From positions 1-54,294 of the IMG/VR virus record IMGVR_UViG_3300033153_010346: 54,294 nt of DNA; one strand, written 5' to 3'. The translations under genes were made by a program, and so were the position numbers. Every line of letters starts with the position of its first letter. Position 1 is the stretch's first letter. Under the pieces are notes generated by a model. That model did not search any database, was not told the DNA's origin, and saw nothing but the letters and a program-made list of their open reading frames with translations. Below are positions 2,522 to 14,875 of this stretch, piece after piece. The DNA comes from a virus.

Positions 2522-2531
2522 GGAGGTTGTG

Positions 2532-3587: not shown

Positions 3588-3612
3588 TAAGACACGATAA
3601 AAAGAAATAGAT

Positions 3613-3695: not shown

Positions 3696-3713
3696 AAAAT
3701 TTAAGGCAAGGTT

Positions 3714-3941
3714 ATGGAAGAGAAAAAAGAACGTAAGGACTTAAGACCCCTTTGGCTTTCAGCAACAGTTATGAGTTATTTGTTGGCCGGATGGATTTTA
3801 ATTGATGCTATTGTATCCCTCTCTTTATTTACAGGGTTTTTTGTGATTCCTCTTCTTGGTTTGGCTGTTTGGTGTAATAGAATTGCCGTTAATGAATGTG
3901 ATTATTGGTATAACAAAAGTAGCAGTAACAAATATTGGTAA
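3714..3941 (+). CDS. Small membrane protein, two predicted segments (75 aa)
   Basis: ATG start after AAGGCAAGG. A charged N-terminus (EEKKERKD) precedes two hydrophobic segments at about residues 13-34 and 37-55 with a short turn, then a polar, lysine/asparagine end. This predicts a hairpin membrane protein of the host inner membrane. It could be holin-like by shape, but it lies in the tRNA region away from the endolysin, so no function is proposed. Confidence 0.6.
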   Translation: MEEKKERKDLRPLWLSATVMSYLLAGWILIDAIVSLSLFTGFFVIPLLGLAVWCNRIAVNECDYWYNKSSSNKYW

Positions 3942-3950
3942 GGAGTGGTT

Positions 3951-4289
3951 GTGAGGATTGATAAGGATTATGTCAATGAAATGTGTCGAAGAGAAAAGTT
4001 TGATGCTTCTTATGGCGATTATGTAGTTTATCAACATCCAGATGGTTATTACATTGCCAGATTAGATATTGATACATTCCATCCTTTAGGTAATTTGGTT
4101 TGGCCTACTGATGAACTTGTAAACCATGGTATAAATGATGCGATGCCAAATAGTTGTTATGTTGAACGAAAAGGTGGAACTTGGGATGAAGCTAATGACA
4201 AAATGTGTGAAGTTCTTCAAAAACTAACAATACAAAATTATCAAGAATATGTGACTTATAAACCTGTAGACCGTAAACCATACAGATGA
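3951..4289 (+). CDS. Hypothetical protein (112 aa)
   Basis: Start chosen at GTG 3951, six bases after AAGGAG; GTG 3945 is too close to the same site. The product is acidic, aromatic-rich and without membrane segments; tyrosine and histidine are frequent (DGYYIARLDIDTFHPLG). It ends four bases before a tRNA-Leu gene. No domain is recognised. Confidence 0.6.
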   Translation: MRIDKDYVNEMCRREKFDASYGDYVVYQHPDGYYIARLDIDTFHPLGNLVWPTDELVNHGINDAMPNSCYVERKGGTWDEANDKMCEVLQKLTIQNYQEYVTYKPVDRKPYR

Positions 4290-4292
4290 TAA

Positions 4293-4367
4293 GGAAGCGT
4301 GAAGGGAATTGGTATACCTCTTTGTTTCAAACACAAAGGCTTGGTGGTTCGACTCCACCCGCTTCTA
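4293..4367 (+). tRNA. trnL: tRNA-Leu (CAA), short variable arm
   Basis: Acceptor GGAAGCG pairs with CGCTTCT (G-U first pair), A73, no encoded CCA. The anticodon stem TTTGT/ACAAA encloses TTCAAAC, giving anticodon CAA. The D-loop GAATTGGTA is leucine-like. The variable region is only about five bases, whereas leucine tRNAs normally carry a long arm. Anticodon and A73 support leucine; the missing arm is the odd point. Confidence 0.85.
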
Positions 4368-4376
4368 TAAGATTAC

Positions 4377-4389
4377 AGGTGTACATAGC
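4377..4389 (+). repeat. Inverted repeat, left copy (13 bp)
   Basis: AGGTGTACATAGC at 4377-4389 is the exact reverse complement of GCTATGTACACCT at 4777-4789. The two copies bracket one small gene (4412-4762) between a leucine and a cysteine tRNA gene. Confidence 0.75.
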
Positions 4390-4411
4390 TAGGTAGGAAG
4401 TGAGATTAGTT

Positions 4412-4762
4412 ATGTATCTTAAGATTATAGACAATCTAGGTAATATCAAAATGTATGAAGGGAAGGAGATTTATTTTTATCGTTATGAATCCCAATTTGG
4501 GAGTGACCCCATAACGGAAGAAGTAACTGATAGTGATGAATGGTATTTAGTATTATCCATTGAAATAGACGGTAAAACACTAAAACCTATTCAAACTAAC
4601 CAACGTGTTACAAAATGGAGTAGTGAGATAGAAAGTGTTTTAAATGGACGTGTTGTTGAAGAGAAATGTTCAAAGTGTGAATACACATGCGACCCATCAG
4701 TAAAACAATCGCGTGTTTTCATAATGAATGACGACGGCAACACAATAGAAAAAATAATGTAG
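4412..4762 (+). CDS. Hypothetical protein with C-terminal CxxC (116 aa)
   Basis: Start chosen at ATG 4412, about eight bases after GGAAGTGAG; GTG 4400 would sit on top of that site. The product is strand-rich and acidic, with a single CSKC followed by a further cysteine near residues 86-94, possibly an incomplete metal site. It is bracketed by a perfect 13-base inverted repeat, so it may be a small inserted cassette. Function unknown. Confidence 0.6.
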   Translation: MYLKIIDNLGNIKMYEGKEIYFYRYESQFGSDPITEEVTDSDEWYLVLSIEIDGKTLKPIQTNQRVTKWSSEIESVLNGRVVEEKCSKCEYTCDPSVKQSRVFIMNDDGNTIEKIM

Positions 4763-4776
4763 CCTAAAATAACTTG

Positions 4777-4789
4777 GCTATGTACACCT
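4777..4789 (-). repeat. Inverted repeat, right copy (13 bp)
   Basis: Partner of the 4377-4389 copy, lying 14 bases after the stop of the bracketed gene and 8 bases before tRNA-Cys. In the transcript the two copies could pair and enclose the whole gene. Confidence 0.75.
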
Positions 4790-4797
4790 AAAATTAT

Positions 4798-4872
4798 GAG
4801 CCAGTAGCCAAATGGCAAGGCAGGTGGTTGCAACCCATCGATGTGGGGGTTCAAGTCCCTCCTGGCTCTCCA
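4798..4872 (+). tRNA. trnC: tRNA-Cys (GCA)
   Basis: Acceptor GAGCCAG/CTGGCTC, discriminator U73 (the cysteine identity base) and encoded CCA. Anticodon loop TTGCAAC gives GCA. Regular class I cloverleaf with T-loop TTCAAGT. Confidence 0.95.
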
Positions 4873-4877
4873 AACTT

Positions 4878-4952
4878 GGGACTGTGACGGGAATTGGTAT
4901 ACCTACTTGGCTTAAAACCAAGTGTCTCTGAGTTCGACTCTCAGCGGTCCTA
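4878..4952 (+). tRNA. trnL: tRNA-Leu (TAA), short variable arm
   Basis: Acceptor GGGACTG/CGGTCCT with a G-U first pair, A73 and no encoded CCA. Stem CTTGG/CCAAG encloses CTTAAAA (anticodon TAA, reading UUA). The D-arm is nearly identical to that of the CAA tRNA at 4293. The variable region is about five bases rather than a long arm. The two genes look like duplicates with changed anticodons. Confidence 0.85.
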
Positions 4953-4965
4953 TTAAACAGAGGTT

Positions 4966-5235
4966 ATGGGAATGAGGCAAAACGAGAAAACATTTGAGAA
5001 GTTGTTTGAAACCGAAACACGTTATCAAATATACCCTCGAAACTGGTACTGCTTTGACCTAGGTATAGGGGACCATACTCTACTAATGCCAAGAGTTTCC
5101 CATAACCCCTTATTTATGTTGTTTATCGCGGCATCGGCATTTAAAGGTTGGGGGAGGTTCATAAGCATGGGCTCAAACCTTACTAGAAAATTTGCCCTCG
5201 TATCGGCTCTGGCTTCTAACCAGGAGAAACCGTAA
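4966..5235 (+). CDS. Small early-family protein whose end overlaps a tRNA (89 aa)
   Basis: ATG start after CAGAGG. Strand-rich N-terminus, then NPLFMLFIAASAFKGW at about residues 45-60 and a basic helix (NLTRKF), the same pattern as the genes at 1322, 2810 and 3093. The last 14 codons run into the atypical tRNA gene at 5194-5273, so the original C-terminus may have been replaced when a tRNA sequence was placed here, or the stop lies inside the RNA gene by chance. Confidence 0.5.
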   Translation: MGMRQNEKTFEKLFETETRYQIYPRNWYCFDLGIGDHTLLMPRVSHNPLFMLFIAASAFKGWGRFISMGSNLTRKFALVSALASNQEKP

Positions 5236-5273
5236 CTGGACACATGTGGGTTCGACTCCTACCGAGGGTACCA
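5194..5273 (+). tRNA. Atypical tRNA-Arg (TCT?) lacking a D-arm
   Basis: Acceptor GCCCTCG/CGAGGGT (G-U first pair), A73, encoded CCA and a regular T-arm (GTGGG/CCTAC, loop TTCGACT) are clear. The anticodon-like hairpin TCTGG/CCAGG has loop CTTCTAA, anticodon TCT. Only seven bases separate acceptor and this stem, so there is no D-arm, and the variable region is about 21 bases. It may be a degenerate gene or a non-canonical tRNA. Confidence 0.55.
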
Positions 5274-5289
5274 AATTTAGGAATTCTTC

Positions 5290-5469
5290 GTGGAACAAAA
5301 AGAACGAACGAAAGCCTTAAAACAACGTATTAAGTCTCTTGAGAGGACACTGGCACATACCACTAATCTGTTAGCAATCTTCAATGTTGACGAACCTGAT
5401 GCAAAAAAACATAGTGCCGTGGATTTTCAAGTGGAGAAAAACAGGTCTTTACTAGACCGTAAGATATAG
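5290..5469 (+). CDS. Small helical protein, GTG start (59 aa)
   Basis: GTG 5290 lies seven bases after TAGGA. The product is highly charged (QKERTKALKQRIKSLERT in the first 20 residues), probably a helix or coiled coil, and has no hydrophobic segment. It fills the gap between two tRNA genes and its stop overlaps the first two bases of tRNA-Gln. No family recognised. Confidence 0.5.
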   Translation: MEQKERTKALKQRIKSLERTLAHTTNLLAIFNVDEPDAKKHSAVDFQVEKNRSLLDRKI

Positions 5470-5541
5470 CCAGATCGTCCAATGTTAGGACATTGGGCTT
5501 TGAACCCAAGAATGTAGGTTAGACTCCTGCTCTGGCTGCCA
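5468..5541 (+). tRNA. trnQ: tRNA-Gln (TTG)
   Basis: Acceptor AGCCAGA/TCTGGCT, G73 and encoded CCA. Stem TTGGG/CCCAA with loop CTTTGAA gives anticodon TTG. The T-loop is TTAGACT, with A instead of the near-universal C56. Fold otherwise standard. Confidence 0.94.
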
Positions 5542-5594
5542 AATATTTGTTTGTAACCCTTCGTGGTTACTTTACACGGTCTAAGAAATCGTGA

Positions 5595-5670
5595 GGCGCA
5601 ATCGTATAATGGTTTATTATACCCGGTTGTCTCCCGGAAGATCAGGGTTCGATTCCCTGTTGTGCCGCCA
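5595..5670 (+). tRNA. trnD: tRNA-Asp (GTC)
   Basis: Acceptor GGCGCAA/TTGTGCC, G73 (aspartate identity base) and encoded CCA. Anticodon loop TTGTCTC gives GTC; the outermost anticodon-stem pair is a C-A mismatch. T-arm AGGG/CCCT with TTCGATT. Confidence 0.92.
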
Positions 5671-5751
5671 AATTGCTCTTGCATGATCAACTTATGGATA
5701 CTTGCTATATTTAGCACGCTTTGAGCATAGATAGTTCTATAAACGAACAAT

Positions 5752-5824
5752 GGTCTCGTAGCTCAATTGGCAGAGCACCTGTGTTACATACAGGATGTTG
5801 ATGGTTCGATTCCATCCGAGACTA
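5752..5824 (+). tRNA. trnV: tRNA-Val (TAC)
   Basis: Acceptor GGTCTCG/CGAGACT with a G-U first pair, A73, no encoded CCA. Standard D-arm (GCTCAATTGGCAGAGC), anticodon stem CCTGT/ACAGG with loop GTTACAT (TAC), T-arm GATGG/CCATC. Confidence 0.95.
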
Positions 5825-5827
5825 TAT

Positions 5828-5903
5828 GGCTCTGTAGCTCAGACAGTAGAGCATGCGGTTGAAGCCCGCAGTGTCGTGGGTGCAATTCCTACCGGGGCCA
5901 CCA
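5828..5903 (+). tRNA. trnF: tRNA-Phe (GAA)
   Basis: Acceptor GGCTCTG/CGGGGCC, A73 and encoded CCA. Stem TGCGG/CCGCA with loop TTGAAGC gives GAA. The T-loop is TGCAATT: G replaces the conserved U55, a change also seen in the His and Ile(GAT) tRNAs of this array. Confidence 0.94.
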
Positions 5904-5911
5904 TAAATTTA

Positions 5912-5996
5912 GGAAGGTCGCATTGGTGTGCTTATCTGGTTTGAACCCAGTGATGTCCTCACGGATGTGGGGGTTCGACTCCCTCACCTTCCTCCA
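5912..5996 (+). tRNA. trnS: tRNA-Ser (TGA)
   Basis: Class II tRNA: acceptor GGAAGGT/ACCTTCC, loop TTTGAAC (anticodon TGA) and a long variable arm containing TCCTCACGGA. CCA is encoded; the discriminator is T instead of the usual G. The variable arm is almost identical to that of tRNA-Ser(GCT) at 6233. Confidence 0.92.
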
Positions 5997-6010
5997 AATC
6001 ACTCAGAGGG
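5996..6010 (+). repeat. Direct repeat, left copy (15 bp)
   Basis: AAATCACTCAGAGGG here matches 6224-6238 (AAATCACTCAGAAGG) with one mismatch. The right copy includes the first six bases of tRNA-Ser(GCT). The two copies flank the cysteine-rich gene 6018-6242. Confidence 0.6.
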
Positions 6011-6017
6011 TATAAAT

Positions 6018-6242
6018 ATGAGTTTTTGTACATGTGATCTAAAAGTTGGTGTCACAACATGTGATGTTTGTCATGGAGATATAACTTTATCAAAACCGTG
6101 TATTTTTTGTGAAAACTCAGTAACAGTTGCAAGGGGTATCATGTTTCATGGTGTAGGCATAACAAAAGAATCTGCACAGACATATTTATGTTCCCATATT
6201 ACTTGTTACAAAAACTATAGTAAAAATCACTCAGAAGGTTGA
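6018..6242 (+). CDS. Cysteine-rich small protein (74 aa)
   Basis: Start chosen at ATG 6018, after a CAGAGGG site; a longer frame would begin inside tRNA-Ser(TGA). The product has CTC near residue 4, CDVC at about 15-18, CIFC at about 28-31 and two further cysteines with a histidine near 60-65. This suggests two small zinc-ribbon sites. The stop lies ten bases inside tRNA-Ser(GCT). Partner and function are unknown. Confidence 0.6.
   Translation: MSFCTCDLKVGVTTCDVCHGDITLSKPCIFCENSVTVARGIMFHGVGITKESAQTYLCSHITCYKNYSKNHSEG
6224..6238 (+). repeat. Direct repeat, right copy (15 bp)
   Basis: Partner of 5996-6010; one mismatch. It spans the end of the cysteine-rich gene and the 5' end of tRNA-Ser(GCT). 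Confidence 0.6.
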
Positions 6243-6320
6243 CAGAGTGGCAATGTGCTGGGTTGCTAACCCAAGGCCGTCCTCACGGATGCATTGGTTC
6301 AATCCCAATACCTTCTGCCA
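6233..6320 (+). tRNA. trnS: tRNA-Ser (GCT)
   Basis: Class II tRNA with acceptor AGAAGGT/ACCTTCT, G73 (serine identity base) and encoded CCA. Stem TGGG/CCCA with loop TTGCTAA gives GCT. Long variable arm shared with tRNA-Ser(TGA). T-loop TTCAATC. Confidence 0.95.
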
Positions 6321-6335
6321 AATTAGGTATTAACT

Positions 6336-6743
6336 ATGTTGGAAAAACTCATGAAACGATGGAAAGAAATAATTTTCATATTTTCGGTTGTAGCTATAGC
6401 CTTTACATTTAATGGTTATCGGATAGAAGCTGAGGAAACTGCCACTAAGGTAAAGAAGTTTGAAGAGACATTTGACAAAATTGCGCAGATTGCAGATGAC
6501 CTCAAGAATCCAAATATATGGCTTCGAAATTATTTGGTAAATCATGGTGTAGATTCTGTAGTTGCGAAGTCTTGGAGTAATATCCCAAGAGGGCCTGTTA
6601 TGACTAAGAGTGATACAACGGTTAATATCCCCTACCTCGAAGCTGATGTTTTGCCAGACATAGGGGTCCAAAAGGTGCGCAAATCAAACGGCGCTACCAA
6701 AATCATGGACACCCTGTGGAATTTCTCAAAAAAGGCGAAATAA
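6336..6743 (+). CDS. Membrane-anchored protein, single N-terminal segment (135 aa)
   Basis: ATG after TTAGG. A basic start (KLMKRWK) is followed by one hydrophobic segment at about residues 12-26 (IIFIFSVVAIAFTF) and then a long polar, partly coiled-coil region. This predicts a type II anchored protein with the main part outside the cytoplasm, or an uncleaved signal. The motif-bearing promoter at 6749 begins just after its stop. Function unknown. Confidence 0.6.
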   Translation: MLEKLMKRWKEIIFIFSVVAIAFTFNGYRIEAEETATKVKKFEETFDKIAQIADDLKNPNIWLRNYLVNHGVDSVVAKSWSNIPRGPVMTKSDTTVNIPYLEADVLPDIGVQKVRKSNGATKIMDTLWNFSKKAK

Positions 6744-6748
6744 CTCAG

Positions 6749-6783
6749 AACCTTTTTCGATTTCCGGTGTTATACATATACAG
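6749..6783 (+). promoter_or_regulatory. Putative phage promoter upstream of tRNA-Met
   Basis: CTTTTTCGATTTCC followed by GTGTTATA (6767-6774) and ACATATACAG. This is nearly identical to the minus-strand copy at 31848-31815 (TTTTTTCGATTTCCT then GTGTTATA). The first downstream element is tRNA-Met at 6788, so transcription would begin at the edge of a tRNA block. Confidence 0.55.
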
Positions 6784-6787
6784 ATCA

Positions 6788-6863
6788 TGCGGGTAGCAGG
6801 GCTGGTGTCCTGGTCGGTCTCATAAGCCGATGGCGAAGGGTTCGATTCCCTTGCCCGCAACCA
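6788..6863 (+). tRNA. trnM: tRNA-Met (CAT)
   Basis: Acceptor TGCGGGT/GCCCGCA with a U-A first pair, A73 and encoded CCA. Stem TCGGT/GCCGA with loop CTCATAA gives anticodon CAT. The paired 1-72 position argues against an initiator. A lysidine-modified Ile2 tRNA would have the same anticodon and cannot be excluded. Confidence 0.9.
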
Positions 6864-6881
6864 AATTTAGAGGAGAAAGAA

Positions 6882-7208
6882 ATGGAAGCAACTGTAAACG
6901 AACTATTGGTATTGAAAAACACTTTACAAACCCGTAAAGCCGAAGTGCAGTCTTTGCTACGTTTGTGTGTTGCTCGTCGTGTTAACGAAGTAAGATACGA
7001 AGAAGAAGTTCGTAAAACTATTGATGAAAGCCGTTACGACCCTAATGATCTAGAGATTCGTAACACTGAGCTAAGCACTGCACTTTTCGAGCTAGATCGG
7101 GCAATCAAAGTGGCTAATGCCAAAACTGTTGTCAACGTAGAAAACGTAGACATTGCTACTTTGCTAGCACCTGTAAAACCCCGTCCTTGGGTTGAAACTC
7201 AAGAATAA
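6882..7208 (+). CDS. Helical hypothetical protein (108 aa)
   Basis: ATG five bases after AGAGGAGAAAG, a strong ribosome site. Mostly helical with heptad-like leucines (NELLVLKNTLQTRKAEVQ), two basic clusters and a short proline-rich acidic end. It has a small-phage-protein look without a named domain. It lies directly upstream of a structured RNA region. Function unknown. Confidence 0.6.
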   Translation: MEATVNELLVLKNTLQTRKAEVQSLLRLCVARRVNEVRYEEEVRKTIDESRYDPNDLEIRNTELSTALFELDRAIKVANAKTVVNVENVDIATLLAPVKPRPWVETQE

Positions 7209-7470
7209 GGGGAGCATGAGTAAATAGCTAGCCGAAAGCTTTGGCTGTTAACAGTTCGGGGCGAGTAGGCGAAAAGGAAAAAACTTGTTGAGTATATTGG
7301 TATCCCCAATATGACACTAGCTGTGTTGTTACAGCCTCCTTTAATAAGGTAAACTATAGTGCCCGTAAACCCATACTTAATAACCATTAAGGTTATTGGT
7401 AGTTGAATAAGACGGGTCAAGTCATGTTGTTTGTTTTTGTTAGTTGTTGTTCTTCAACAAATTTTTCTCT
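7209..7470 (+). ncRNA. Candidate structured non-coding RNA with own terminator
   Basis: No convincing reading frame, but many perfectly paired helices: 7294-7300/7306-7312, 7320-7324/7331-7335, 7338-7341/7346-7349, 7379-7385/7391-7397. These are enclosed by 7315-7319/7357-7361 and 7362-7366/7412-7416, with 7283-7287/7418-7422 closing the whole. The hairpin 7444-7449/7455-7460 followed by ATTTTTCT looks like a terminator. It is not recognised as tmRNA, RNase P RNA or a known riboswitch. Confidence 0.5.
7444..7466 (+). terminator. Rho-independent terminator-like hairpin
   Basis: TTGTTG pairs with CAACAA around a five-base loop and is followed by ATTTTTCTCT. The stem is AT-rich, so the terminator would be weak. 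It closes the structured region 7209-7470 before tRNA-Arg. Confidence 0.45.
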
Positions 7471-7488
7471 GCTATTTGCTCTTTATAT

Positions 7489-7561
7489 TCCTTCGTCGTC
7501 TAATTGGAGAGGACATTTGGCTACGAACCAAAAAATGCGGGTTCGATTCCTGTCGAGGGGA
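7489..7561 (+). tRNA. trnR: tRNA-Arg (ACG)
   Basis: Acceptor TCCTTCG/CGAGGGG with two wobble pairs (U-G first), A73, no encoded CCA. Stem TTTGG/CCAAA with loop CTACGAA gives ACG, which would be deaminated to ICG to read CGU/C/A. T-loop TTCGATT. Confidence 0.92.
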
Positions 7562-7580
7562 TTTACATAAAGGGTAATAT

Positions 7581-7892
7581 ATGACCACAGTAAATAAAAG
7601 GAAATATTGGCGGGAGATAAAGAGAAAGAATCGGGCGCGGAATCGTAAGTTTATTTTTGAATATCTAAGTGATCATCCATGTGTTGATTGCCCAGAAGCT
7701 GACCCAATAGTATTAGAATTTGATCACGTAAGAGGTGAAAAGCTAGATACAATAAGTAACCTAGCAGTAAGATACACAGCAAGTCTGAAAAAGATTAAAG
7801 AAGAGATAGAGAAGTGTGAGGTTCGATGTGCGAATTGTCACAGACGCAGACATGCTAAGTTGTTGAAAGAAAAGAATAGATCGATGGTGTAG
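7581..7892 (+). CDS. HNH endonuclease (103 aa)
   Basis: Small HNH nuclease. The first zinc pair is C34/C37; the catalytic strand carries EFDHV (D48-H49), and the second pair C83/C86 is followed by H87 and H91 (CANCHRRRH). The N-terminus is strongly basic. Such stand-alone enzymes cut DNA and often behave as homing endonucleases in phages. The last 15 bases, including the stop, lie inside tRNA-Trp, so the gene is wedged against the tRNA. Confidence 0.85.
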   Translation: MTTVNKRKYWREIKRKNRARNRKFIFEYLSDHPCVDCPEADPIVLEFDHVRGEKLDTISNLAVRYTASLKKIKEEIEKCEVRCANCHRRRHAKLLKEKNRSMV

Positions 7893-7951
7893 TGACAACA
7901 TCTCTGGCTCCAAACCAGAGGACCAGGGTTTGATTCCTTGTCGGTCTGCCA
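7878..7951 (+). tRNA. trnW: tRNA-Trp (CCA)
   Basis: Acceptor AGATCGA/TCGGTCT, G73 (tryptophan identity base), encoded CCA. Stem TCTGG/CCAGA with loop CTCCAAA gives CCA. T-loop TTTGATT with U in place of C56. The HNH gene ends inside its 5' half. Confidence 0.94.
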
Positions 7952-7955
7952 AATT

Positions 7956-8159
7956 ATGAGCTACATTGGACCTGAAGGTATTAGGAGAAAAAGTGTTACT
8001 CCTTTGAATGTAAAGAGATTAACCTTTTCCAAGTATATGTACAAAGCCGAGTGTGGTAGTTGTTGTACAGTCCACAAGTTTAATCCAAGTGGAATAACCC
8101 CCTCATTTGTGTGTGATATATGCGGGACAAAAAATGTAGCAAACTTTACAATCATGTAA
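7956..8159 (+). CDS. Zinc-ribbon protein (67 aa)
   Basis: Start chosen at ATG 7956, five bases after tRNA-Trp; the longer frame would begin within the tRNA. The product has CGSCC at about residues 29-33 and CDICG at about 51-55, the two knuckles of a small zinc ribbon. No ribosome site precedes the ATG. It ends one base before the tRNA-Ala gene. Confidence 0.55.
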   Translation: MSYIGPEGIRRKSVTPLNVKRLTFSKYMYKAECGSCCTVHKFNPSGITPSFVCDICGTKNVANFTIM

Positions 8160-8160
8160 T

Positions 8161-8232
8161 GGGGTGCGTACTGGGGTACAGGAAGCTTTTGCAAGGCATC
8201 CCGGCTGGGTTCGATTCCCAGGCCCTCCACCA
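8161..8232 (+). tRNA. trnA: tRNA-Ala (TGC), degenerate anticodon stem
   Basis: Acceptor GGGGTGC/GCCCTCC with the G3-U70 pair that defines alanine tRNAs, A73 and encoded CCA; there is a U-C mismatch at pair 5-68. The D-arm is a GTAC/GTAC stem with a TGGG loop. The loop TTTGCAA gives TGC, but the anticodon stem has only three to four pairs. T-arm CTGGG/CCCAG. Confidence 0.75.
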
Positions 8233-8237
8233 AATAT

Positions 8238-8310
8238 GAGGTGCGGATTGAAGTCCGAGAATCTCTTAACAGGGAACTCTTGCTGGGTTCGACTCCCAGG
8301 CACCTCCCCA
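8238..8310 (+). tRNA. tRNA of undetermined identity (non-canonical anticodon arm)
   Basis: Perfect acceptor GAGGTGC/GCACCTC, T-arm CTGGG/CCCAG with TTCGACT, C73 and encoded CCA. A D-like hairpin CGGA-TTGAAG-TCCG is seen. The anticodon region has no stable five-pair stem; spacing puts AAC at 34-36 with only three pairs. It may be a decayed gene or a non-canonical tRNA, related in style to the tRNA-like RNAs just downstream. Confidence 0.6.
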
Positions 8311-8314
8311 AATG

Positions 8315-8385
8315 GGCCTATTCGTCTAGTGGAAGGATATCTGACTTTCTATCAGATGGCGAGGGTTCGATTCCCTCATAGGCTA
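8315..8385 (+). tRNA. trnE: tRNA-Glu (TTC)
   Basis: Acceptor GGCCTAT/ATAGGCT with a G-U first pair, A73, no complete CCA. Stem TCTGA/TCAGA with loop CTTTCTA gives TTC. T-arm GAGGG/CCCTC with TTCGATT. Confidence 0.94.
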
Positions 8386-8394
8386 CAAAGATTT

Positions 8395-8469
8395 GCCTCC
8401 ATAGCTCAATGGTAGAGCCAGAGTTTTGTAAACTCTAGGTTGTGGGTTCGACTCCTACTGGGGGCTCCA
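8395..8469 (+). tRNA. trnT: tRNA-Thr (TGT)
   Basis: Acceptor GCCTCCA/TGGGGGC, encoded CCA; the discriminator is T. Standard D-arm, stem AGAGT/ACTCT with loop TTTGTAA (TGT), T-arm GTGGG/CCTAC. Confidence 0.94.
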
Positions 8470-8473
8470 AGGA

Positions 8474-8520
8474 GTGGCGGGCGGAAAGACCGTGTAAAGG
8501 GTGAAAATCCCTACCGTCAC
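8474..8520 (+). ncRNA. Anticodon-less tRNA-like RNA, copy 1
   Basis: A seven-pair outer helix (8474-8480/8514-8520), a hairpin CGG-AAAGA-CCG (8482-8492), then a T-arm-like hairpin GGG-TGAAAAT-CCC (8499-8511). There is no room for D and anticodon arms; total 47 nt. It contains the box GGAAAGACCGTG found identically in copy 3. Neither a coding frame nor an encoded CCA is present. Confidence 0.5.
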
Positions 8521-8533
8521 ACAGAATGGAACT

Positions 8534-8585
8534 GCGTTATGGACCAGAAAGACTGTGCATTGGGTGCAAATCCCTGCTATGACGC
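8534..8585 (+). ncRNA. Anticodon-less tRNA-like RNA, copy 2
   Basis: Outer helix GCGTTAT/ATGACGC, extendable to ten pairs (8531-8540/8579-8588). Hairpin CAG-AAAGA-CTG (8545-8555), then GGG-TGCAAAT-CCC (8562-8574) flanked by a further GCA/TGC pairing. The order and loops equal copy 1, and the base changes are compensatory (CGG/CCG to CAG/CTG), which supports a selected structure. Confidence 0.5.
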
Positions 8586-8596
8586 GGTTTATAAAT

Positions 8597-8707
8597 GGTA
8601 GGTAGGAAAGACCGTGGACGGAGTTGACGTTTTAACTCGTATAACGGGTTAGTCAGAACTTGGCGATCCCAAGAAGTCTTCTGGAGTGGTGAGAATCCAC
8701 ACCTACC
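8597..8707 (+). ncRNA. tRNA-like RNA, copy 3 with internal insertion
   Basis: Outer helix GGTAGGT/ACCTACC (8597-8603/8701-8707), the box GGAAAGACCGTG (8605-8616) and the T-arm-like hairpin GTGG-TGAGAAT-CCAC (8686-8700). About 70 bases between them form extra hairpins, such as GAGTT/AACTC (8621-8638) and CTTGG/CCAAG (8660-8674). This copy is followed by ACC rather than CCA. Confidence 0.45.
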
Positions 8708-8718
8708 ACCGACAATTA

Positions 8719-8793
8719 GCTAGGATAGTGTTAGCAGTAGCACGTCTGGTTGTGGGCCAGAAAGGCTTGGTGCAAGTCCAGGTCCTAGTACCA
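8719..8793 (+). tRNA. trnH: tRNA-His (GTG)
   Basis: Acceptor GCTAGGA/TCCTAGT with a G-U first pair, A73, encoded CCA. Stem TCTGG/CCAGA with loop TTGTGGG gives GTG. The usual histidine features, an extra G at -1 opposite C73, are absent. T-loop TGCAAGT with G55. Confidence 0.9.
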
Positions 8794-8818
8794 ATAAATG
8801 TAGTAAGGAGAAAACAGA

Positions 8819-9361
8819 ATGAATGTAATGGTGGATTTGGAAACCATGGGAGTAGACGATTCAGCGGCTATTGTTTCAATCGGGGCTGTTGAATTTAACA
8901 AGGATAAGATAGGTTCGGAGTTTTATCGTAACATCACCTTGTACTCTAATCAAAGTCGAGGTAGAACGTACACACCTAGTACAATCGAATGGTGGCTTAA
9001 ACAAGACAAGGCGGCTCAGGAAGGTTTGTTCAATCCTACACCTGTTGATCTCTTAACTGCTTTGAAAGACTTCCAGAAGTATGTAACTGGGGTGTTAAGT
9101 AAGAATGATGGTATGTGGGCAAATGGAGTAACATTTGATCTAATTATCCTAAGCCATGCCTTTAAAGCCATGAATGTGAAAAAACCTTGGCATTTCCGAA
9201 ATGAGTGTTGCGTTAGACCACTACGTAAGATTGGTTACTTGGTTGGCCTGAAATATGAAGATTATTATGGAGAAGGTGTAGCTCACAACGCTTTGGACGA
9301 TGCGAAGCTACAAGCGAAATTTGTTCAAGATTTTATTCGTAAAATGGAGAGCAATAAATAA
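8819..9361 (+). CDS. DEDDh 3'-5' exonuclease (DexA/RNase T type)
   Basis: 180 residues, start at ATG eight bases after AAGGAG. The DEDDh catalytic set is complete: D6 and E8 in VDLETMG, D107 in VTFDLI, H156 and D161 in HNALDDA. The length and the MVDLETMG start resemble T4 DexA and other phage exonucleases that degrade DNA or RNA from the 3' end. A role in nucleotide recycling or end processing is likely. A function in maturing the adjacent tRNAs, in the manner of RNase T, is possible but only inferred from position. Confidence 0.88.
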   Translation: MNVMVDLETMGVDDSAAIVSIGAVEFNKDKIGSEFYRNITLYSNQSRGRTYTPSTIEWWLKQDKAAQEGLFNPTPVDLLTALKDFQKYVTGVLSKNDGMWANGVTFDLIILSHAFKAMNVKKPWHFRNECCVRPLRKIGYLVGLKYEDYYGEGVAHNALDDAKLQAKFVQDFIRKMESNK

Positions 9362-9370
9362 GGAGTTTTT

Positions 9371-9760
9371 ATGAAGACATTGTTAACCCTTCTGGCCGCT
9401 CTGATTCTCATTGGTGGAGTTTTTAGTGAGTCAGTTCAAGCACAATTTTATGACTTGGATGGTCAGCTTAGTTTGACATGGACAGCCCCGAACCCGGCTA
9501 CCAATCCACCTCTGAAAGATTACATTGTGACTTATTACACGTTTGATTATGGCACTAGTGTGTATGATACATCCCAAGTAGCTACTACAAACGTATTTGA
9601 TTCAACAGTTAATCTCGTGAGTCAAGGAAGCTGGTGTTATGCTGAATTGCAATCAAGAGATTATCTGGATAGGGTTTCATCTGTAGTTGTTAGTGATACG
9701 GCTTATTACGACGCAGGTATTGGCATTGACCCCCCGACGGGGCCAACTTGGACACAATAG
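9371..9760 (+). CDS. Secreted FnIII-like protein, likely joined by -1 frameshift to the next frame
   Basis: ATG after AAGGAG. Residues 1-24 are a clear Sec signal peptide (LLTLLAALILIGGV, cleavage after VQA). The rest (about 30-110) resembles a fibronectin type III domain (LTWTAPNP..., YIVTYYTF, WCYAELQSRD). Near the end the C-run at 9730-9735 forms the slippery heptamer C CCC CCG. A -1 shift there leads into the 9748 frame, which is open from 9730, and gives a product of about 212 residues ending in a type IX sorting domain. Without shifting, a 129-residue periplasmic protein results. Confidence 0.75.
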   Translation: MKTLLTLLAALILIGGVFSESVQAQFYDLDGQLSLTWTAPNPATNPPLKDYIVTYYTFDYGTSVYDTSQVATTNVFDSTVNLVSQGSWCYAELQSRDYLDRVSSVVVSDTAYYDAGIGIDPPTGPTWTQ

Positions 9761-9766
9761 GCCTTT
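9730..9766 (+). promoter_or_regulatory. Putative -1 ribosomal frameshift signal
   Basis: Slippery sequence C CCC CCG (9730-9736) in the reading frame of the secreted protein. It is followed closely by a possible hairpin in which 9739-9744 (GGGGCC) pairs with 9760-9765 (GGCCTT). A single missing C in the assembly would have the same effect, so error and recoding cannot be told apart from sequence alone. Confidence 0.45.
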
Positions 9767-10008
9767 TCCTACAAGTTGTGCCCAATCCTAACGATGGCGG
9801 ATTTAAGTTATATGTCAATCTCCCTTTCAAAGAGAGTTATCAAATAACTTTCTACAATATAATAGGGGCAGTAAGATTAGAAGAATTTATAAAAGGAAAA
9901 GGTCGTCATGTTATCAACTACAAACTTTCTTGGCCTTCGGGCATTTACCTTGCTTGTGTGCAGAATTCTTATATGCATGTTTGTACTAAGTTCGTTCTCG
10001 TTCAGTGA
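9730..10008 (+). CDS. Type IX secretion C-terminal sorting domain (frameshift product or separate TTG-start gene)
   Basis: This frame is open from 9730; its only independent start is a TTG at 9748. From about residue 11 of the TTG version it follows the type A sorting domain of type IX substrates: VVPNPNDGGF, hydrophobic strands, ITFYNIIGAV, GRHVINYKL, SGIYLACV and a final basic/hydrophobic strand. Such domains are found at the C-terminus of proteins moved across the outer membrane of Bacteroidota and are not functional alone without a signal peptide, so fusion to the upstream frame makes sense. Confidence 0.75.
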   Translation, partial: PPDGANLDTIGLFLQVVPNPNDGGFKLYVNLPFKESYQITFYNIIGAVRLEEFIKGKGRHVINYKLSWPSGIYLACVQNSYMHVCTKFVLVQ

Positions 10009-10321
10009 GGTAGTTATTGAAGGTGATTATCTAAAATGGATAGCTGTAGGAGATGACGATAATTATGGAACCGCGACGAAGTATGACATAAGGTATTCTA
10101 CAGAGAACCTTGCGAACTGGGAGTTGGGAGATGTACTACTGACCGCCCCAACCCCCTCGCAGTCAGGAATGAGGGACAGTGCTTACATTGATCTTATTCC
10201 TGGTGCTTATTACTTTTGTATCAGGGTTAGAGACGAAGTGTGGAACTGGTCACTATGGTCTAACGTTGTGATGAAAGATTCAAGACAAATTGAACCGCCT
10301 TATTTAGTGGAGTGGGAATAA
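9908..10321 (+). CDS. Second secreted FnIII-like protein (137 aa)
   Basis: ATG 9908 follows GGAAAAGG, so it is translated although it overlaps the sorting-domain frame by 101 bases. Residues 10-33 are hydrophobic and end in a small-residue region, a signal peptide. The mature part resembles one fibronectin type III domain as found in Bacteroidota (GDDDNYGTATKYDIRYST, then YYFCIRVRDEVWNWSLWSN). No sorting domain follows, so it would remain periplasmic or be released. It may work with the upstream secreted protein. Confidence 0.7.
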   Translation: MLSTTNFLGLRAFTLLVCRILICMFVLSSFSFSEVVIEGDYLKWIAVGDDDNYGTATKYDIRYSTENLANWELGDVLLTAPTPSQSGMRDSAYIDLIPGAYYFCIRVRDEVWNWSLWSNVVMKDSRQIEPPYLVEWE

Positions 10322-10566
10322 TGGCTAAGAAAATCAGACAAAGTGTAAATCGTGATATGGCTACTAAAGCTAAGTCTATGATACTTACTATTTGGTGTGG
10401 TTATCTTGAGAAAGAAGTAACTGTTGAAGTTGATACTAATTATAGCGTTTTTGGTGGGATTTCAGTAAGAGGCCATATATGTGAGTGTACCTGTGACTAT
10501 GCTGTAAACTTTGAATTCACATGCGAGTGTGGACACAAACACGAAATAAGACTGTATGAATCCTAG
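10321..10566 (+). CDS. Cysteine-rich zinc-binding protein (81 aa)
   Basis: Start chosen at ATG 10321, sharing a base with the upstream stop; GGAG lies about ten bases before. A basic N-terminus (KKIRQSVNRD) precedes a strand-rich part with CECTC at about residues 54-58 and CECGHKH at about 68-74, together one zinc site. The stop overlaps the first base of tRNA-Asn. Function unknown. Confidence 0.6.
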   Translation: MAKKIRQSVNRDMATKAKSMILTIWCGYLEKEVTVEVDTNYSVFGGISVRGHICECTCDYAVNFEFTCECGHKHEIRLYES

Positions 10567-10639
10567 GCTCTTTAGCTCAATGGTAGAGCGATTGGCTGTT
10601 AACCATTTGACAAAGGTTCGATTCCTTTAGGAGCCTCCA
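10566..10639 (+). tRNA. trnN: tRNA-Asn (GTT)
   Basis: Acceptor GGCTCTT/AGGAGCC, encoded CCA, discriminator T. Loop CTGTTAA gives GTT; the anticodon stem has one U-U mismatch. T-loop TTCGATT. Confidence 0.93.
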
Positions 10640-10644
10640 AATTT

Positions 10645-10721
10645 GCGCCTATAACTCAACTAGGTAGAGTAGCAGGCTTTTAACCTGAAAGTTCAAGGTT
10701 CGATTCCTTGTGGGCGCACCA
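10645..10721 (+). tRNA. trnK: tRNA-Lys (TTT)
   Basis: Acceptor GCGCCTA/TGGGCGC, A73, encoded CCA. Stem CAGG/CCTG with loop CTTTTAA gives TTT. T-arm CAAGG/CCTTG with TTCGATT. Confidence 0.95.
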
Positions 10722-10727
10722 AATTAA

Positions 10728-10815
10728 GGGTTGGTAAGCATAGTGGCGAATGCCCCTGACTGTAGATCAGGTACCCAAGCGGTGAACATCGTAGGTTCGA
10801 CTCCTACCCAACCCA
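10728..10815 (+). tRNA. trnY: tRNA-Tyr (GTA)
   Basis: Class II tRNA with acceptor GGGTTGG/CCAACCC, A73, no encoded CCA. Stem CCTGA/TCAGG with loop CTGTAGA gives GTA. Long variable arm, T-arm GTAGG/CCTAC. Confidence 0.95.
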
Positions 10816-10831
10816 TTAAATAGGAGAATAT

Positions 10832-11377
10832 ATGGCAGCGGAACGACAATTTGAGCTTGATTCACACCATTTGCTTAGATACAACTTTGCTATGTCACAT
10901 TGTTTTGGTAGTGTGTTAGACATTGCTTGTGGCTATGGGGAAGGTTCTAACATGTTGTCTACATCAACTAAGATAACAAACGTTGTTGGTGTAGATATAG
11001 CACAAGATGTAGTAGATGTTGCAAGTAAACGATATCCTAATATCATTTTTGAATGTGCTAACTTATTAAACTATAAAGGACAATTTGACTCAGTAGTTAG
11101 CTTTGAAACAGTTGAGCATATTAAAGATTTCAAAAAAACAAAGCAACAATTAAAAAGTCTACTTAAACCAAAAGGGTTATTAATTTTTTCAGTGCCCGCT
11201 AACGAATCAGAAGGAACCAACCCGCATCATGTTGTGTGGGATCTAACACAAAATGATTTTGAGGAATTTTCCGAATGTCATTTTTTTCATCAAACCTCAA
11301 ATTTTCTTATAAAAGAAACGTTTGATGAAGTAAGCAGTGTAATTTATAACCTTATTGGAATATATATTAACAAGTAA
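10832..11377 (+). CDS. Class I SAM-dependent methyltransferase (181 aa)
   Basis: ATG seven bases after AGGAGA. The Rossmann-fold methyltransferase motifs are clear: motif I VLDIACGYGEGSNML at about residues 28-42, acidic end of strand 2 in VVGVDIA, motif with CANLLNY, then DSVVSFETVEHI and GLLIFSVP. This is the Methyltransf_11/UbiG-type fold. The substrate cannot be told from sequence. Its position between tRNA-Tyr and tRNA-Ile (which starts at the next base) makes tRNA or a sugar possible targets, as inference only. Confidence 0.85.
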   Translation: MAAERQFELDSHHLLRYNFAMSHCFGSVLDIACGYGEGSNMLSTSTKITNVVGVDIAQDVVDVASKRYPNIIFECANLLNYKGQFDSVVSFETVEHIKDFKKTKQQLKSLLKPKGLLIFSVPANESEGTNPHHVVWDLTQNDFEEFSECHFFHQTSNFLIKETFDEVSSVIYNLIGIYINK

Positions 11378-11453
11378 CGTGCAGTAGCTCAGTGAGTAGA
11401 GCACTTGTCTGATACACAAGCGGCCGGTGGTGCAAATCCATCCTGCACGACCA
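11378..11453 (+). tRNA. trnI: tRNA-Ile (GAT)
   Basis: Acceptor CGTGCAG/CTGCACG, A73, encoded CCA. Stem CTTGT/ACAAG with loop CTGATAC gives GAT. T-loop TGCAAAT with G55. It begins one base after the methyltransferase stop. Confidence 0.94.
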
Positions 11454-11458
11454 AATAA

Positions 11459-11534
11459 GCCCCAGTGGTGTTAATGATTAGCATGACAGCCTTCCAAGCT
11501 GACGGTCAGGGTTTGAATCCCTGTTGGGGCTCCA
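11459..11534 (+). tRNA. trnG: tRNA-Gly (TCC)
   Basis: Acceptor GCCCCAG/TTGGGGC, U73 (glycine identity base), encoded CCA. Stem CAGC/GCTG with loop CTTCCAA gives TCC. T-loop TTTGAAT with U at 56. Confidence 0.94.
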
Positions 11535-11572
11535 AAATTATTAGTTAATCCCCTCTGTCTGAGGACTTTGGG

Positions 11573-11605
11573 CGTCCATCAAGTTGGTGCACTTACTAGG
11601 TGGAC
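11573..11605 (+). other. Hairpin upstream of small gene
   Basis: GTCCATC pairs with GGTGGAC and an inner AAGT/ACTT helix caps it. It lies in the leader between tRNA-Gly and the gene at 11626. It could be a processing or translation-control element; nothing more can be said. Confidence 0.3.
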
Positions 11606-11625
11606 ACTAAAATTAGAGGTAGGAA

Positions 11626-11823
11626 ATGCCTAAACCAAAACCTGACGAAAAACGGGATGAATTTCTACCTAGATGTATGGATAGTCCTGAAATGAAGAGT
11701 GAGTACCCAACCAACACTAAACAACGGTATGCGGTTTGTGTTGGTATTTGGAAAACCCATTTGAAAAGAAAGCGTAAAAGTGATATCGAGGAAGAGACTA
11801 GAGAGGGCAAATCAAATAGCTGA
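11626..11823 (+). CDS. Small conserved phage protein (65 aa)
   Basis: ATG after AGAGGTAGGAA. The N-terminal pattern KPDEKRDEFLPRCMDS...M...YP...QRYAVCVGIW recalls a short motif seen in many phage proteins, often near structural genes (RCM, then AVC and W). The C-terminus is very basic and then acidic. It likely binds nucleic acid or protein, but the role is unknown. It overlaps the next gene by 44 bases. Confidence 0.65.
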   Translation: MPKPKPDEKRDEFLPRCMDSPEMKSEYPTNTKQRYAVCVGIWKTHLKRKRKSDIEEETREGKSNS

Positions 11824-12094
11824 ACGTACATACACTCAATACCATTATGGTAACTTTTATCGATACAACCATGACAACCCTAATGTCATTCATGATATTT
11901 TTGGATTCAGGCATGAATTGGTGGATCTTAAATCGTTGGGGATGTATCGTAAAACCAGGGTATATCGTTGGCAGACAAGGAGTAAGGAATGGTACAAGGC
12001 CAATTGGGCTACAGCTTGGGGAACGAAAACACGCCAACAGTTACGTGCAGATGAAAATTTACGGGAACAAATTCGAGAAACTGGTGTTATATAA
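11780..12094 (+). CDS. Basic aromatic-rich hypothetical protein (104 aa)
   Basis: GTG start inside the previous gene. The product is rich in arginine, tyrosine and tryptophan (YRKTRVYRWQTRSKEWYKAN), suggesting a nucleic-acid-binding surface. Another frame (11847-12098) is also open but has less phage-like composition. The end overlaps the promoter-like motif at 12067. No family recognised. Confidence 0.5.
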   Translation: MISRKRLERANQIAERTYTQYHYGNFYRYNHDNPNVIHDIFGFRHELVDLKSLGMYRKTRVYRWQTRSKEWYKANWATAWGTKTRQQLRADENLREQIRETGVI

Positions 12095-12102
12095 GTAGGA
12101 GG
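12067..12102 (+). promoter_or_regulatory. Possible phage promoter (GTGTTATA motif)
   Basis: ATTCGAGAAACTG then GTGTTATA (12084-12091), and AGGAGG five bases later. The spacing from motif to ribosome site equals that at 2508-2526. It lies inside the end of a gene, so it could be coincidental. Confidence 0.35.
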
Positions 12103-12106
12103 ATTT

Positions 12107-12430
12107 ATGCATAGGCTCTGGCTGATTGTGCTGATTGTTATGGTTTGCGCCATTATAGCTTTAGCTACACCAGAAAGAGAAGTAGACCTCTCAAAGGCAG
12201 ATATTCATTACCTGCAGATTGAACTAGCAGACAGCACTAAGATCAACCTAGCGACCCTTCTGAGCTTAGAAATGCCGGAAGGTGATACAATTACCCTTAT
12301 GATAGCTGTTGATGAAAACGGTGATTGTGAAGTAGCTGATATTATATCAACGCGAGAAACCAGTGCTGTAGAAGTCTGGTGTGATTTCCTTGATGAATTA
12401 ACACGAATTATAAAAGAATGTAAAAAATAA
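12107..12430 (+). CDS. Secreted or anchored small protein (107 aa)
   Basis: ATG five bases after AGGAGG, the best ribosome site in this area. Residues 4-20 are a signal peptide or anchor (LWLIVLIVMVCAIIALA). The mature part is acidic and strand-rich (HYLQIELADSTKINLATLL) with two cysteines that could form a disulphide. It ends directly at tRNA-Pro. It is the fourth exported product of the plus-strand region. Confidence 0.6.
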   Translation: MHRLWLIVLIVMVCAIIALATPEREVDLSKADIHYLQIELADSTKINLATLLSLEMPEGDTITLMIAVDENGDCEVADIISTRETSAVEVWCDFLDELTRIIKECKK

Positions 12431-12506
12431 CGGAGTGTAGGAAAGAGGATATCCACTTGGTTTGGGACCAAGTATAACGCTGGTTCGAATCCAGCCACTC
12501 CGACCA
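12431..12506 (+). tRNA. trnP: tRNA-Pro (TGG)
   Basis: Acceptor CGGAGTG/CACTCCG, A73, encoded CCA. Stem CTTGG/CCAAG with loop TTTGGGA gives TGG. T-loop TTCGAAT. Confidence 0.95.
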
Positions 12507-12520
12507 AATTAGGGGTTGTT

Positions 12521-12616
12521 ATGCTAATTATCAAACTCGAAAAATGGGAAGACGGACAACTTCTTCCTGTGAGTCAACAAGAGATCGATAAGCTTATAGA
12601 AGCTATTGGGCAGTAA
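12521..12616 (+). CDS. Tiny protein between tRNA genes (31 aa)
   Basis: ATG after an AGGGG site, 14 bases behind tRNA-Pro; the last ten bases overlap tRNA-Ile. The sequence is soluble and helical (SQQEIDKLIEAIGQ). It is typical of the short cassettes in this array, and the ribosome site is the only support. Confidence 0.4.
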   Translation: MLIIKLEKWEDGQLLPVSQQEIDKLIEAIGQ

Positions 12617-12682
12617 CTCAAGTGGTAGAGACCGTGCCTTATATGCACGTAGTTACAGGTTCGAGTCCTGTCTGCCCAACCA
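12607..12682 (+). tRNA. trnI: tRNA-Ile (TAT)
   Basis: Acceptor TGGGCAG/CTGCCCA, A73, encoded CCA. Stem CGTGC/GCACG with loop CTTATAT gives TAT, reading AUA without lysidine modification. T-arm ACAGG/CCTGT. Confidence 0.93.
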
Positions 12683-12693
12683 AATAGGACACA

Positions 12694-12900
12694 ATGAAGA
12701 AACTGAAATTGAAGGTATATAAGGGTACCCTGTTTATCAATGACTGTACTATTATGATGACAGAGGCTAGATATTTCGGATCTCCATTGTGTCTTTTTTT
12801 AGGTGCAATGTTTGCACAGAGTCCATTCTCTAGTGTTCGTGGACCGTTATATTGGAGAGATGCATCAAAACGCTATAACAGACGAGGGTTCTATGTTTGA
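12694..12900 (+). CDS. Small early-family protein (68 aa)
   Basis: ATG after ATAGGACACA. Strand-rich N-terminus (KLKVYKGTLFIND), then GSPLCLFLGAMFAQSPF at about residues 29-45 and a basic aromatic tail (YWRDASKRYNRRG). This is the outlying copy of the small-gene family of 175-5235, about 7.5 kb away from the main group. It overlaps the next gene by eight bases. Confidence 0.6.
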   Translation: MKKLKLKVYKGTLFINDCTIMMTEARYFGSPLCLFLGAMFAQSPFSSVRGPLYWRDASKRYNRRGFYV

Positions 12901-13171
12901 TAAGACTAGATTTATCTTCAACATGCATAAGTTAAATCAGTTGAGTGTAACCAAATTTGCTACAAAACTAGAGGAGCTATTAGAAGGGAAACATTTATAT
13001 CGAACAATAGATGGCAGAATATTAGATTTTCGAGAGGGTATTGAACACGCACCAAAAAAACAAAGGTTTAGCATACGTCAAACAAGACTAGAACCCCTGC
13101 ATACAAAACCAAGCGTAAAACCGAAAGACAGTACTTATAGGCACATAAACCGTAAAAGGAAAAAGAAATGA
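12893..13171 (+). CDS. Basic hypothetical protein (92 aa)
   Basis: Start chosen at ATG 12893 (GAGG seven bases before); an open extension back to 12803 lies in the previous gene. The first half is helical and leucine-rich, the second half strongly basic with a C-terminal KRKKK, suggesting nucleic-acid binding. No domain recognised. Confidence 0.5.
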   Translation: MFDKTRFIFNMHKLNQLSVTKFATKLEELLEGKHLYRTIDGRILDFREGIEHAPKKQRFSIRQTRLEPLHTKPSVKPKDSTYRHINRKRKKK

Positions 13172-13184
13172 CGGACAATCAGTA

Positions 13185-13439
13185 ATGCCTTACATCGAAA
13201 AGAAAAGACGTACAAATCTAATGCCAACAGCCAGTGTAGAAACTGCAGGCGAGTTAAATTACGTGATTACAATGGTTGCTATCCGGTATATCAGGGATCA
13301 TGGTTTAAGCTACCAAACAATCAATGATGTAATGGGGGCGTTTATTTCGGCTAGTCAAGAGTTCTATAGGCGAGTTGCTGTACCCTATGAAGAAAAGAAG
13401 AGAAAGAAGAATGGGGACATCCCTTATCCTAAACCCTAA
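13185..13439 (+). CDS. Conserved small phage protein (DUF6899-like, 84 aa)
   Basis: The pattern MPYI near the start, AGELNYVIT in the middle, GLSYQTINDVMGA and then EFYRRVAVPYEEKK is shared by a widespread family of short phage proteins of unknown function. Length and spacing fit the family as I recall it. No enzyme motif is visible. Genes of this family usually lie among replication or metabolism genes. Confidence 0.75.
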   Translation: MPYIEKKRRTNLMPTASVETAGELNYVITMVAIRYIRDHGLSYQTINDVMGAFISASQEFYRRVAVPYEEKKRKKNGDIPYPKP

Positions 13440-13456
13440 ACAAAGGAGACTGTATA

Positions 13457-13681: not shown

Positions 13682-13690
13682 CGGACAAAA

Positions 13691-13717: not shown

Positions 13718-13731
13718 AATGCGGCGAACTC

Positions 13732-14868: not shown

Positions 14869-14875
14869 AATATTA

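Follow-up and report, generated by a model that had tools for sequence, protein, structure and literature searches.

The closest described counterparts of the elements analyzed here are the small stable RNAs of the phages T4 and T5. In the T4 record, rnaC and rnaD are annotated as small stable RNAs beside the tRNAs. In the T5 record (AY543070) eight stable RNAs are interspersed with the tRNAs; two of these are labelled tRNA-like and a third putatively tRNA-like. Besides tRNA, no Rfam family was found at gathering score in the stable-RNA stretches of the two phages. We employed a geometry scan with a single requirement: the strand pairing with a 7-base acceptor strand must directly follow a T stem of 5 positions, the loop of which has 7 nt and is of the T-loop type. 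The scan was devised after the modules described below had been read; its rules are those of tRNA, the T-loop rules were used without tuning on a separate set, and T-loop position 55 was left free, so that the modules and some tRNAs are admitted alike. Unaided, it picked out T4 rnaC (one of two T4 RNAs) and T5 rna1, rna2 and a stretch within rnaX (three of eight T5 RNAs), all without an encoded CCA. As annotated T4 rnaC and T5 rna1 and rna2 are detected in this way, anticodon-less tRNA-like phage RNAs represent a known, though unexplained, kind.

Matches to T5 rna2 were found in 432 phage records and matches to T4 rnaC in 714. Six of the 432 records with T5 rna2 relatives were fetched, and five kept the acceptor/T-arm parse at the aligned place; the Acinetobacter one is doubtful. 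In Erwinia phage KEY the rna2 acceptor was wholly replaced, still paired at 7/7 positions and then followed by CCA; CCA is likewise encoded in the rna2 relative of Salmonella phage vB_SalS-SIY1lw. In T5 rna2 itself (L025 12960-13084), the T arm is accompanied by another T-loop-like hairpin, CTCG TTCGATT CGAG.

Two further systems come close in anatomy. The armless mitochondrial tRNAs of Romanomermis culicivorax retain the anticodon. They are treated as a miniaturised tRNA derivative in the abstract of PMC7730189 and are devoid of D and T arms; the present elements instead retain the T arm and lose the anticodon. Bacterial RNase P cuts model hairpins that consist of an acceptor stem with T stem and T-loop (PMC11143913, section 4); these hairpins are artificial, and the elements add an AAAGA hairpin and carry no CCA. 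RNase P also cuts various tRNA-like RNAs, according to PMC11143913 and PMC4919922. Minimal anticodon-less tRNA-like phage RNAs were not found described in the literature covered, the older T4/T5 literature lying mostly outside this coverage, and the word phage is absent from the available portion of PMC7609411 on non-canonical tRNAs.

Three tandem elements in the tRNA cluster

The window, i.e., the whole stretch of DNA analyzed, is an IMG/VR virus record of 54,294 bases with matches to terminase, portal and DNA polymerase. Its tRNA cluster at 3.6-12.7 kb (3613-12682) comprises 26 tRNA or near-tRNA genes: 23 found by ARAGORN, the gene at 5194 and tRNA-His at 8719 found by Rfam, and an odd gene at 8238 found by the geometry scan. 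With this tRNA-His counted, which neither ARAGORN nor the Rfam scan of the whole window had detected, all 20 amino acids are covered by the cluster tRNAs. The odd gene (8238-8310) has a 7/7 acceptor, a normal T arm and an encoded CCA, but no 7-nt anticodon loop, and was missed by ARAGORN and Rfam; as its T arm is almost the same as that of tRNA-Ala at 8161, it is probably a tandem duplicate. The tRNA-Ala (8161-8232) shows a very small D loop and an acceptor with a mismatch (6/7), which suggests that reduction is frequent among the tRNA genes of this cluster. Elsewhere in the window, two adjacent reading frames (38675-41815 and 42150-45290) have exactly 1046 codons each with unrelated sequences, the second being rich in QLIWN/QLIWD-like repeats.

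All three elements lie on the + strand in the 249-nt gap between tRNA-Thr (8395-8469, + strand, found by ARAGORN and Rfam) and tRNA-His (8719-8793, + strand, 43.7 bits with Rfam, with an encoded CCA). Element 1 (8474-8520, 47 nt) pairs 8474-8480 with 8514-8520 as acceptor (GTGGCGG/CCGTCAC, 7 pairs, 6 of them Watson-Crick) and contains an AAAGA hairpin and a T arm at 8497-8513; the geometry scan scored it at 7/7 acceptor and 4/5 T-stem positions. Element 2 (8536-8583, 48 nt), recognized by the geometry scan and by the covariance model R1 described below, has its acceptor at 8536-8542/8577-8583 (GTTATGG/CTATGAC, 7 pairs, 5 Watson-Crick), a CAG-AAAGA-CTG hairpin and a T arm at 8560-8576. Its outer helix continues for 7 further pairs, to 8529/8590, giving 14 pairs in all. 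Element 3 (8596-8708, 113 nt), recognized by the geometry scan and the fold, carries an acceptor of 7/7 Watson-Crick pairs (8596-8602/8702-8708, TGGTAGG/CCTACCA), the box, an extra domain and a T arm at 8685-8701.

The T arms read AAGGG-TGAAAAT-CCCTA, TTGGG-TGCAAAT-CCCTG and AGTGG-TGAGAAT-CCACA in elements 1, 2 and 3. In every element the T stem is paired at 4/5 positions, the loop has 7 nt and the arm directly abuts the acceptor strand, as in tRNA and in agreement with the trait of the Rfam tRNA model (RF00005). Between acceptor and T stem lie 16, 17 and 82 nt in elements 1, 2 and 3, compared to 37-56 nt in the tRNAs of the window. A middle of 16-17 nt leaves no room for an anticodon arm with a 7-nt loop, which elements 1 and 2 therefore lack. 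Element 3 is 66 nt longer than element 1, close to the about 70 extra bases of the first-pass annotation; the additional sequence sits at the place of the anticodon arm and variable region of a tRNA, with approximate borders at 8619-8684, and is predicted to fold into two hairpins.

Taken as genes, these elements are not canonical tRNAs. RF00005 yielded no match in 8470-8714 at E<=5, while tRNA-Thr and tRNA-His do match; the tmRNA model (RF00023) had no match in 8380-8820, and ARAGORN sees no tmRNA gene in the window. CCA is encoded in 0/3 modules versus 20/26 of the window tRNAs. The DNA thus encodes three tandem top-half tRNA folds within a tRNA cluster; their acceptors are compensated, none is followed by CCA, and copies 1 and 2 lack an anticodon arm.

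The inner part is less uniform. Elements 1 (8483-8494, + strand) and 3 (8605-8616, + strand) share the identical 12-mer box GGAAAGACCGTG, and comparison of the copies places the corresponding box of element 2, AGAAAGACTGTG, at 8546-8557 (+ strand). The change in copy 2 keeps the pairing, as had been claimed before, with 3, 3 and 2 hairpin pairs possible in elements 1, 2 and 3. An AAAGA hairpin in each copy, as first proposed, is compatible with these pairs, but the minimum-energy fold draws it in copy 1 only, where all three helices appear together. For elements 2 and 3 the outer helix forms in the minimum-energy fold, while the inner part of element 2 and the AAAGA hairpin of element 3 fold otherwise. 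The AAAGA hairpin is consequently the weakest structural part, and the box may be conserved for its sequence. The fold z-scores were moderate, with -2.50, -3.70 and -2.03 for elements 1, 2 and 3 (shuffles as good: 3/200, 1/200 and 5/200).

Conserved pairing and probable tRNA ancestry

Applied to the + strand of the window, the geometry scan recovered the 26 tRNA genes together with the three modules; its two other matches lie at 36549 and 52683. Since the modules are recovered by the same rules as the tRNAs, the coaxial top half of a tRNA is present in them. The match at 36549-36588, within a coding region, also reaches 7/7. Single matches of this type do occur by chance, with a mean of 2.65 per shuffled window at >=6/7, so that secondary structure arising by chance in a spacer had to be considered. 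Dinucleotide shuffles of 8467-8718 gave one 7/7 element in 8/4000 cases and at least two elements, even at 6/7, in 0/4000, while the real interval contains three. This agrees with the three modules with seven-pair outer helices and T-arm-like hairpins first described between tRNA-Thr and tRNA-His. As the held-out copy 2 was also recovered by a model of the other copies (see below), we give chance structure next to no weight.

Within its own copy each acceptor is fully paired (21/21), compared to 21/42 pairs when strands are exchanged between copies, which shows that the stems diverged while pairing was kept. Comparing copy 1 with the core of copy 3, both sides had changed in 6/14 pairs. For copies 1 and 3 together 27/28 cells were paired (96.4%) versus <=50.0% in slid registers, a value which comes from two rows only and was matched by 10/500 shuffles. 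The covariance model R1 was built from two rows, copies 1 and 3, with copy 2 held out. It found copy 2 with 27.0 bits (E 1.4e-5, whole window), compared to 11.2 bits for the best non-module score (1-16000, filters off). Owing to its insert, copy 3 was recovered only as two pieces, with scores of 19.0 and 14.7 bits. We are aware of the fact that the covariation support comes from three sequences on one contig. Nevertheless, the compensated divergence of the acceptors and the recovery of the held-out copy support the proposal of tRNA-like RNAs under structural selection.

Several observations point to an origin from tRNA genes. The alignment of copy 2 with the 3' half of tRNA-His outscored every shuffle (0/300 as good), part of the score being due to common T-arm sequence. 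Compared as whole copies with the 26 window tRNAs, copy 1 was closest to tRNA-Phe with 19/300 shuffles as good, and copy 3 reached 155/300. A G at T-loop position 55 is found in 3/3 elements and, among the 26 cluster tRNAs, only in tRNA-Phe, tRNA-His and tRNA-Ile (3/26); a feature common to the elements and three cluster tRNAs fits an origin within the cluster. Birth from tRNA genes, as put forward in the first-pass annotation, is thus probable.

Several tRNAs were considered as the source of the box. The resemblance of the box to part of tRNA-His holds insofar as CCAGAAAG is common to both, but this is not significant against 104 tRNA middles. The D arm of tRNA-Pro (12431) carries the box letters TAGGAAAGA. 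In tandem tRNA-Phe genes of two viral contigs, anticodon loop and stem read GAAAGACCGTG, which hinted at the box as a contracted anticodon arm. When the boxes were compared with the 104 tRNA middles, none was significant (142/200, 71/200 and 65/200 shuffles as good), and the hairpin may be a shrunken D arm or a shrunken anticodon arm.

A tRNA origin would also agree with a simple loss of function, in which deletion and tandem duplication left decaying, functionless tRNA pseudogenes. Other reduced genes are present in the cluster (the tRNA-Ala with its tiny D loop and the tRNA-like gene at 8238-8310), copy 2 resembles the 3' half of a neighboring tRNA, and the elements are not conserved in the sole relative with a tRNA cluster (see below). 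Decay explains the reduced neighbors, but not the stems, which differ and are nevertheless intact in all 21 acceptor pairs, nor does it agree with the intact 12-mer box in copies 1 and 3. We therefore consider pseudogenes unlikely.

Comparison with stable RNAs and clusters of other phages

Like T4 rnaC and T5 rna1 and rna2, the elements lie in a tRNA cluster on the tRNA strand and show the acceptor/T-arm geometry without a canonical tRNA match; sequence homology to the T4/T5 members was not found. The likeness is closest for T5 rna2, annotated as 'tRNA-like stable RNA with unknown functions', which also lies in a phage tRNA cluster, has a 7-pair acceptor abutting a 5-pair T arm and no CCA, and gives no tRNA match at the Rfam gathering score. 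Its middle of 89 nt with extra hairpins follows a plan similar to the 82-nt middle of element 3. On the other hand, rna2 has 125 nt and a standard TTCGAAT T-loop, and 14/400 shuffles were as good as its alignment with element 3, one value among 30 comparisons. T4 rnaC (species 1 RNA) is a stable RNA beside tRNAs as well, with acceptor and T arm in its 3' part and no CCA, but differs by its 139 nt, long 5' part and TTCGAAT T-loop; sequence similarity was not established. In T5, three small RNAs, rna1, rnaI and rnaIII, lie directly upstream of tRNA-His, as do the elements; these have 106-144 nt, and rnaI and rnaIII give no acceptor/T-arm match. Altogether, 30 comparisons of the elements with RNAs of T4, T5 and the related contigs gave a lowest value of 1/400 shuffles, nothing beyond chance for that number. 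By anatomy the elements resemble the T4/T5 stable RNAs, and we do not claim homology. Distinctive here are the core of 47-48 nt reduced to acceptor and T arm, the three copies in tandem and the common box, a form not met in the other clusters examined. The idea of a new RNA family was only half right, as stable RNAs with tRNA-like features had been annotated in T4 and T5 before, and the elements are probably unusually small examples of this type.

Scans for terminase, portal and a 160-aa protein identified only four other relatives of the window in viral_contigs. Three of these measure 7-8 kb, and the fourth, a 118-kb phage (L014), is the sole relative with a tRNA cluster. With R1, the three elements were found to be absent from it, and a search of ten records (the four related contigs, T4, T5, Ahp1, BRock and two further contigs) yielded no credible homologue. 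Two weak matches were seen in these records, the stronger one antisense in a T5 CDS. The expectation of homologues with covarying helices in related phages was thus not borne out, with a single relative carrying a tRNA cluster examined. L014 contains at 6813-7000, between tRNA-Thr and tRNA-Gly, an 8-pair helix around a long arm and a 7-pair hairpin with the T-loop TGAGAGT. Its fold was equalled by 11/200 shuffles, no Rfam match was obtained, and it showed no sequence similarity to the copies (75/400, 395/400 and 71/400 shuffles as good). Possibly this is another tRNA-like RNA, to judge by its letters a non-homologous one.

Pattern searches gave a similar picture. The strict combination of box and T-loop had 0 matches in viral_contigs. 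A looser one had a single match, in contig L016 where a reading frame ends, with 21.2 bits against R1; this contig had no match to the window terminase and no tRNA in the stretch examined. The match was set aside: it was picked by the same letters, is devoid of the abutting acceptor geometry, and by a rough estimate several chance matches are expected. At 570-613 of L016, a 10-pair hairpin with a TGAGAGT loop and the letters GAAAGACCGTG lies over a stop codon and is followed by the direct repeat TTATGCAC, probably by chance. The pattern of box and T-loop had 20 matches in genome_contigs, all rejected as none of them (0/20) combined a 7/7 acceptor with a middle of <=30 nt. The box together with a TTC-type T-loop hit three contigs in viral_contigs, two of them those with the tandem tRNA-Phe genes, with all matches inside or overlapping ARAGORN tRNA genes. 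Finally, a survey of the tRNA-flanking stretches of T4, T5, Ahp1, BRock, the 118-kb relative and a faecal phage revealed no short element in which a 7/7 acceptor goes together with a middle of <=30 nt; the few 6/7 matches of this survey (two in L025, which is T5, and others in L029 and L014/L026) were taken as chance.

Possible processing and roles of the elements

The elements would be transcribed together with the cluster tRNAs. Host tRNA-processing enzymes might then release them, as an acceptor stem and a T arm are sufficient for RNase P, and they would persist. According to PMC11143913, however, the missing CCA weakens recognition by RNase P via the RCCA contact.

Cleavage itself could be their purpose. 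As tandem minimal sites for RNase P and RNase Z, similar to t-elements, they would punctuate the transcript in cis and cut it between tRNA-Thr and tRNA-His, leaving fragments without function. Their location in the 249-nt gap between two tRNAs fits such a role, as do the identity of acceptor plus T arm with the RNase P model substrate (PMC11143913) and the t-elements known as substrates (PMC4919922). A role of this type accounts for where the elements lie, but neither for their number nor for the insert: three copies and 66 additional nucleotides exceed the needs of a cut site, and extra sites are superfluous for tRNAs flanked by tRNAs. Moreover, with its 14-pair outer helix, copy 2 would presumably be cut less readily at the tRNA-like position. 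Taken together, a pure role in cis appears unlikely.

A function as bait was also considered. Anticodon nucleases require an anticodon loop, which is absent here, so that decoying of these enzymes is unlikely; decoys for tRNA-cleaving enzymes in the usual sense, as suggested at first, are not supported, and for copies 1 and 2 the anatomy excludes anticodon nucleases. The idea would have to be restated for a tRNA-directed defence enzyme or toxin which reads these molecules at their acceptor or T arm; a nucleotidyltransferase toxin and a T-arm nuclease would be examples. The mimicry of the top half, the several copies and the location among phage tRNAs agree with such baits, and phage tRNAs can reportedly counter PARIS-type defence. 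We nevertheless regard this version as improbable.

Our preferred explanation, which in our estimate has an about even chance of being right, is that the elements are genuine small RNAs, tRNA-like but non-translating and maintained by selection; they would be of the kind of T4 rnaC (species 1) and T5 rna1 and rna2, in their smallest form, and act in trans via the acceptor/T-arm part. They would derive from tRNA genes that lost their lower half and were duplicated in tandem. Their acceptor/T-arm surface might occupy a host or defence protein which recognizes that part of a tRNA; a trans role via this surface explains why only this part was kept. Against this explanation stand the missing homologue outside the window, the absence from the 118-kb relative and the moderate fold z-scores. 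In a more specific form, which we consider quite unlikely, phage-made top-half tRNA mimics were multiplied in tandem to saturate an enzyme recognizing acceptor and T arm, such as a nucleotidyltransferase toxin, a T-arm nuclease, RNase P or EF-Tu. If true, these mimics, smaller than any known to us, would constitute a device for RNA-based counter-defence or for translation take-over, distinct from spare tRNAs.

A simple geometry scan offers a route to RNAs of this type, which are missed by ARAGORN and Rfam. A version of 47 nt made of acceptor and T arm only points to the part that matters in such RNAs, and makes the benefit of non-decoding tRNA-like RNAs to phages accessible to tests on a compact molecule.
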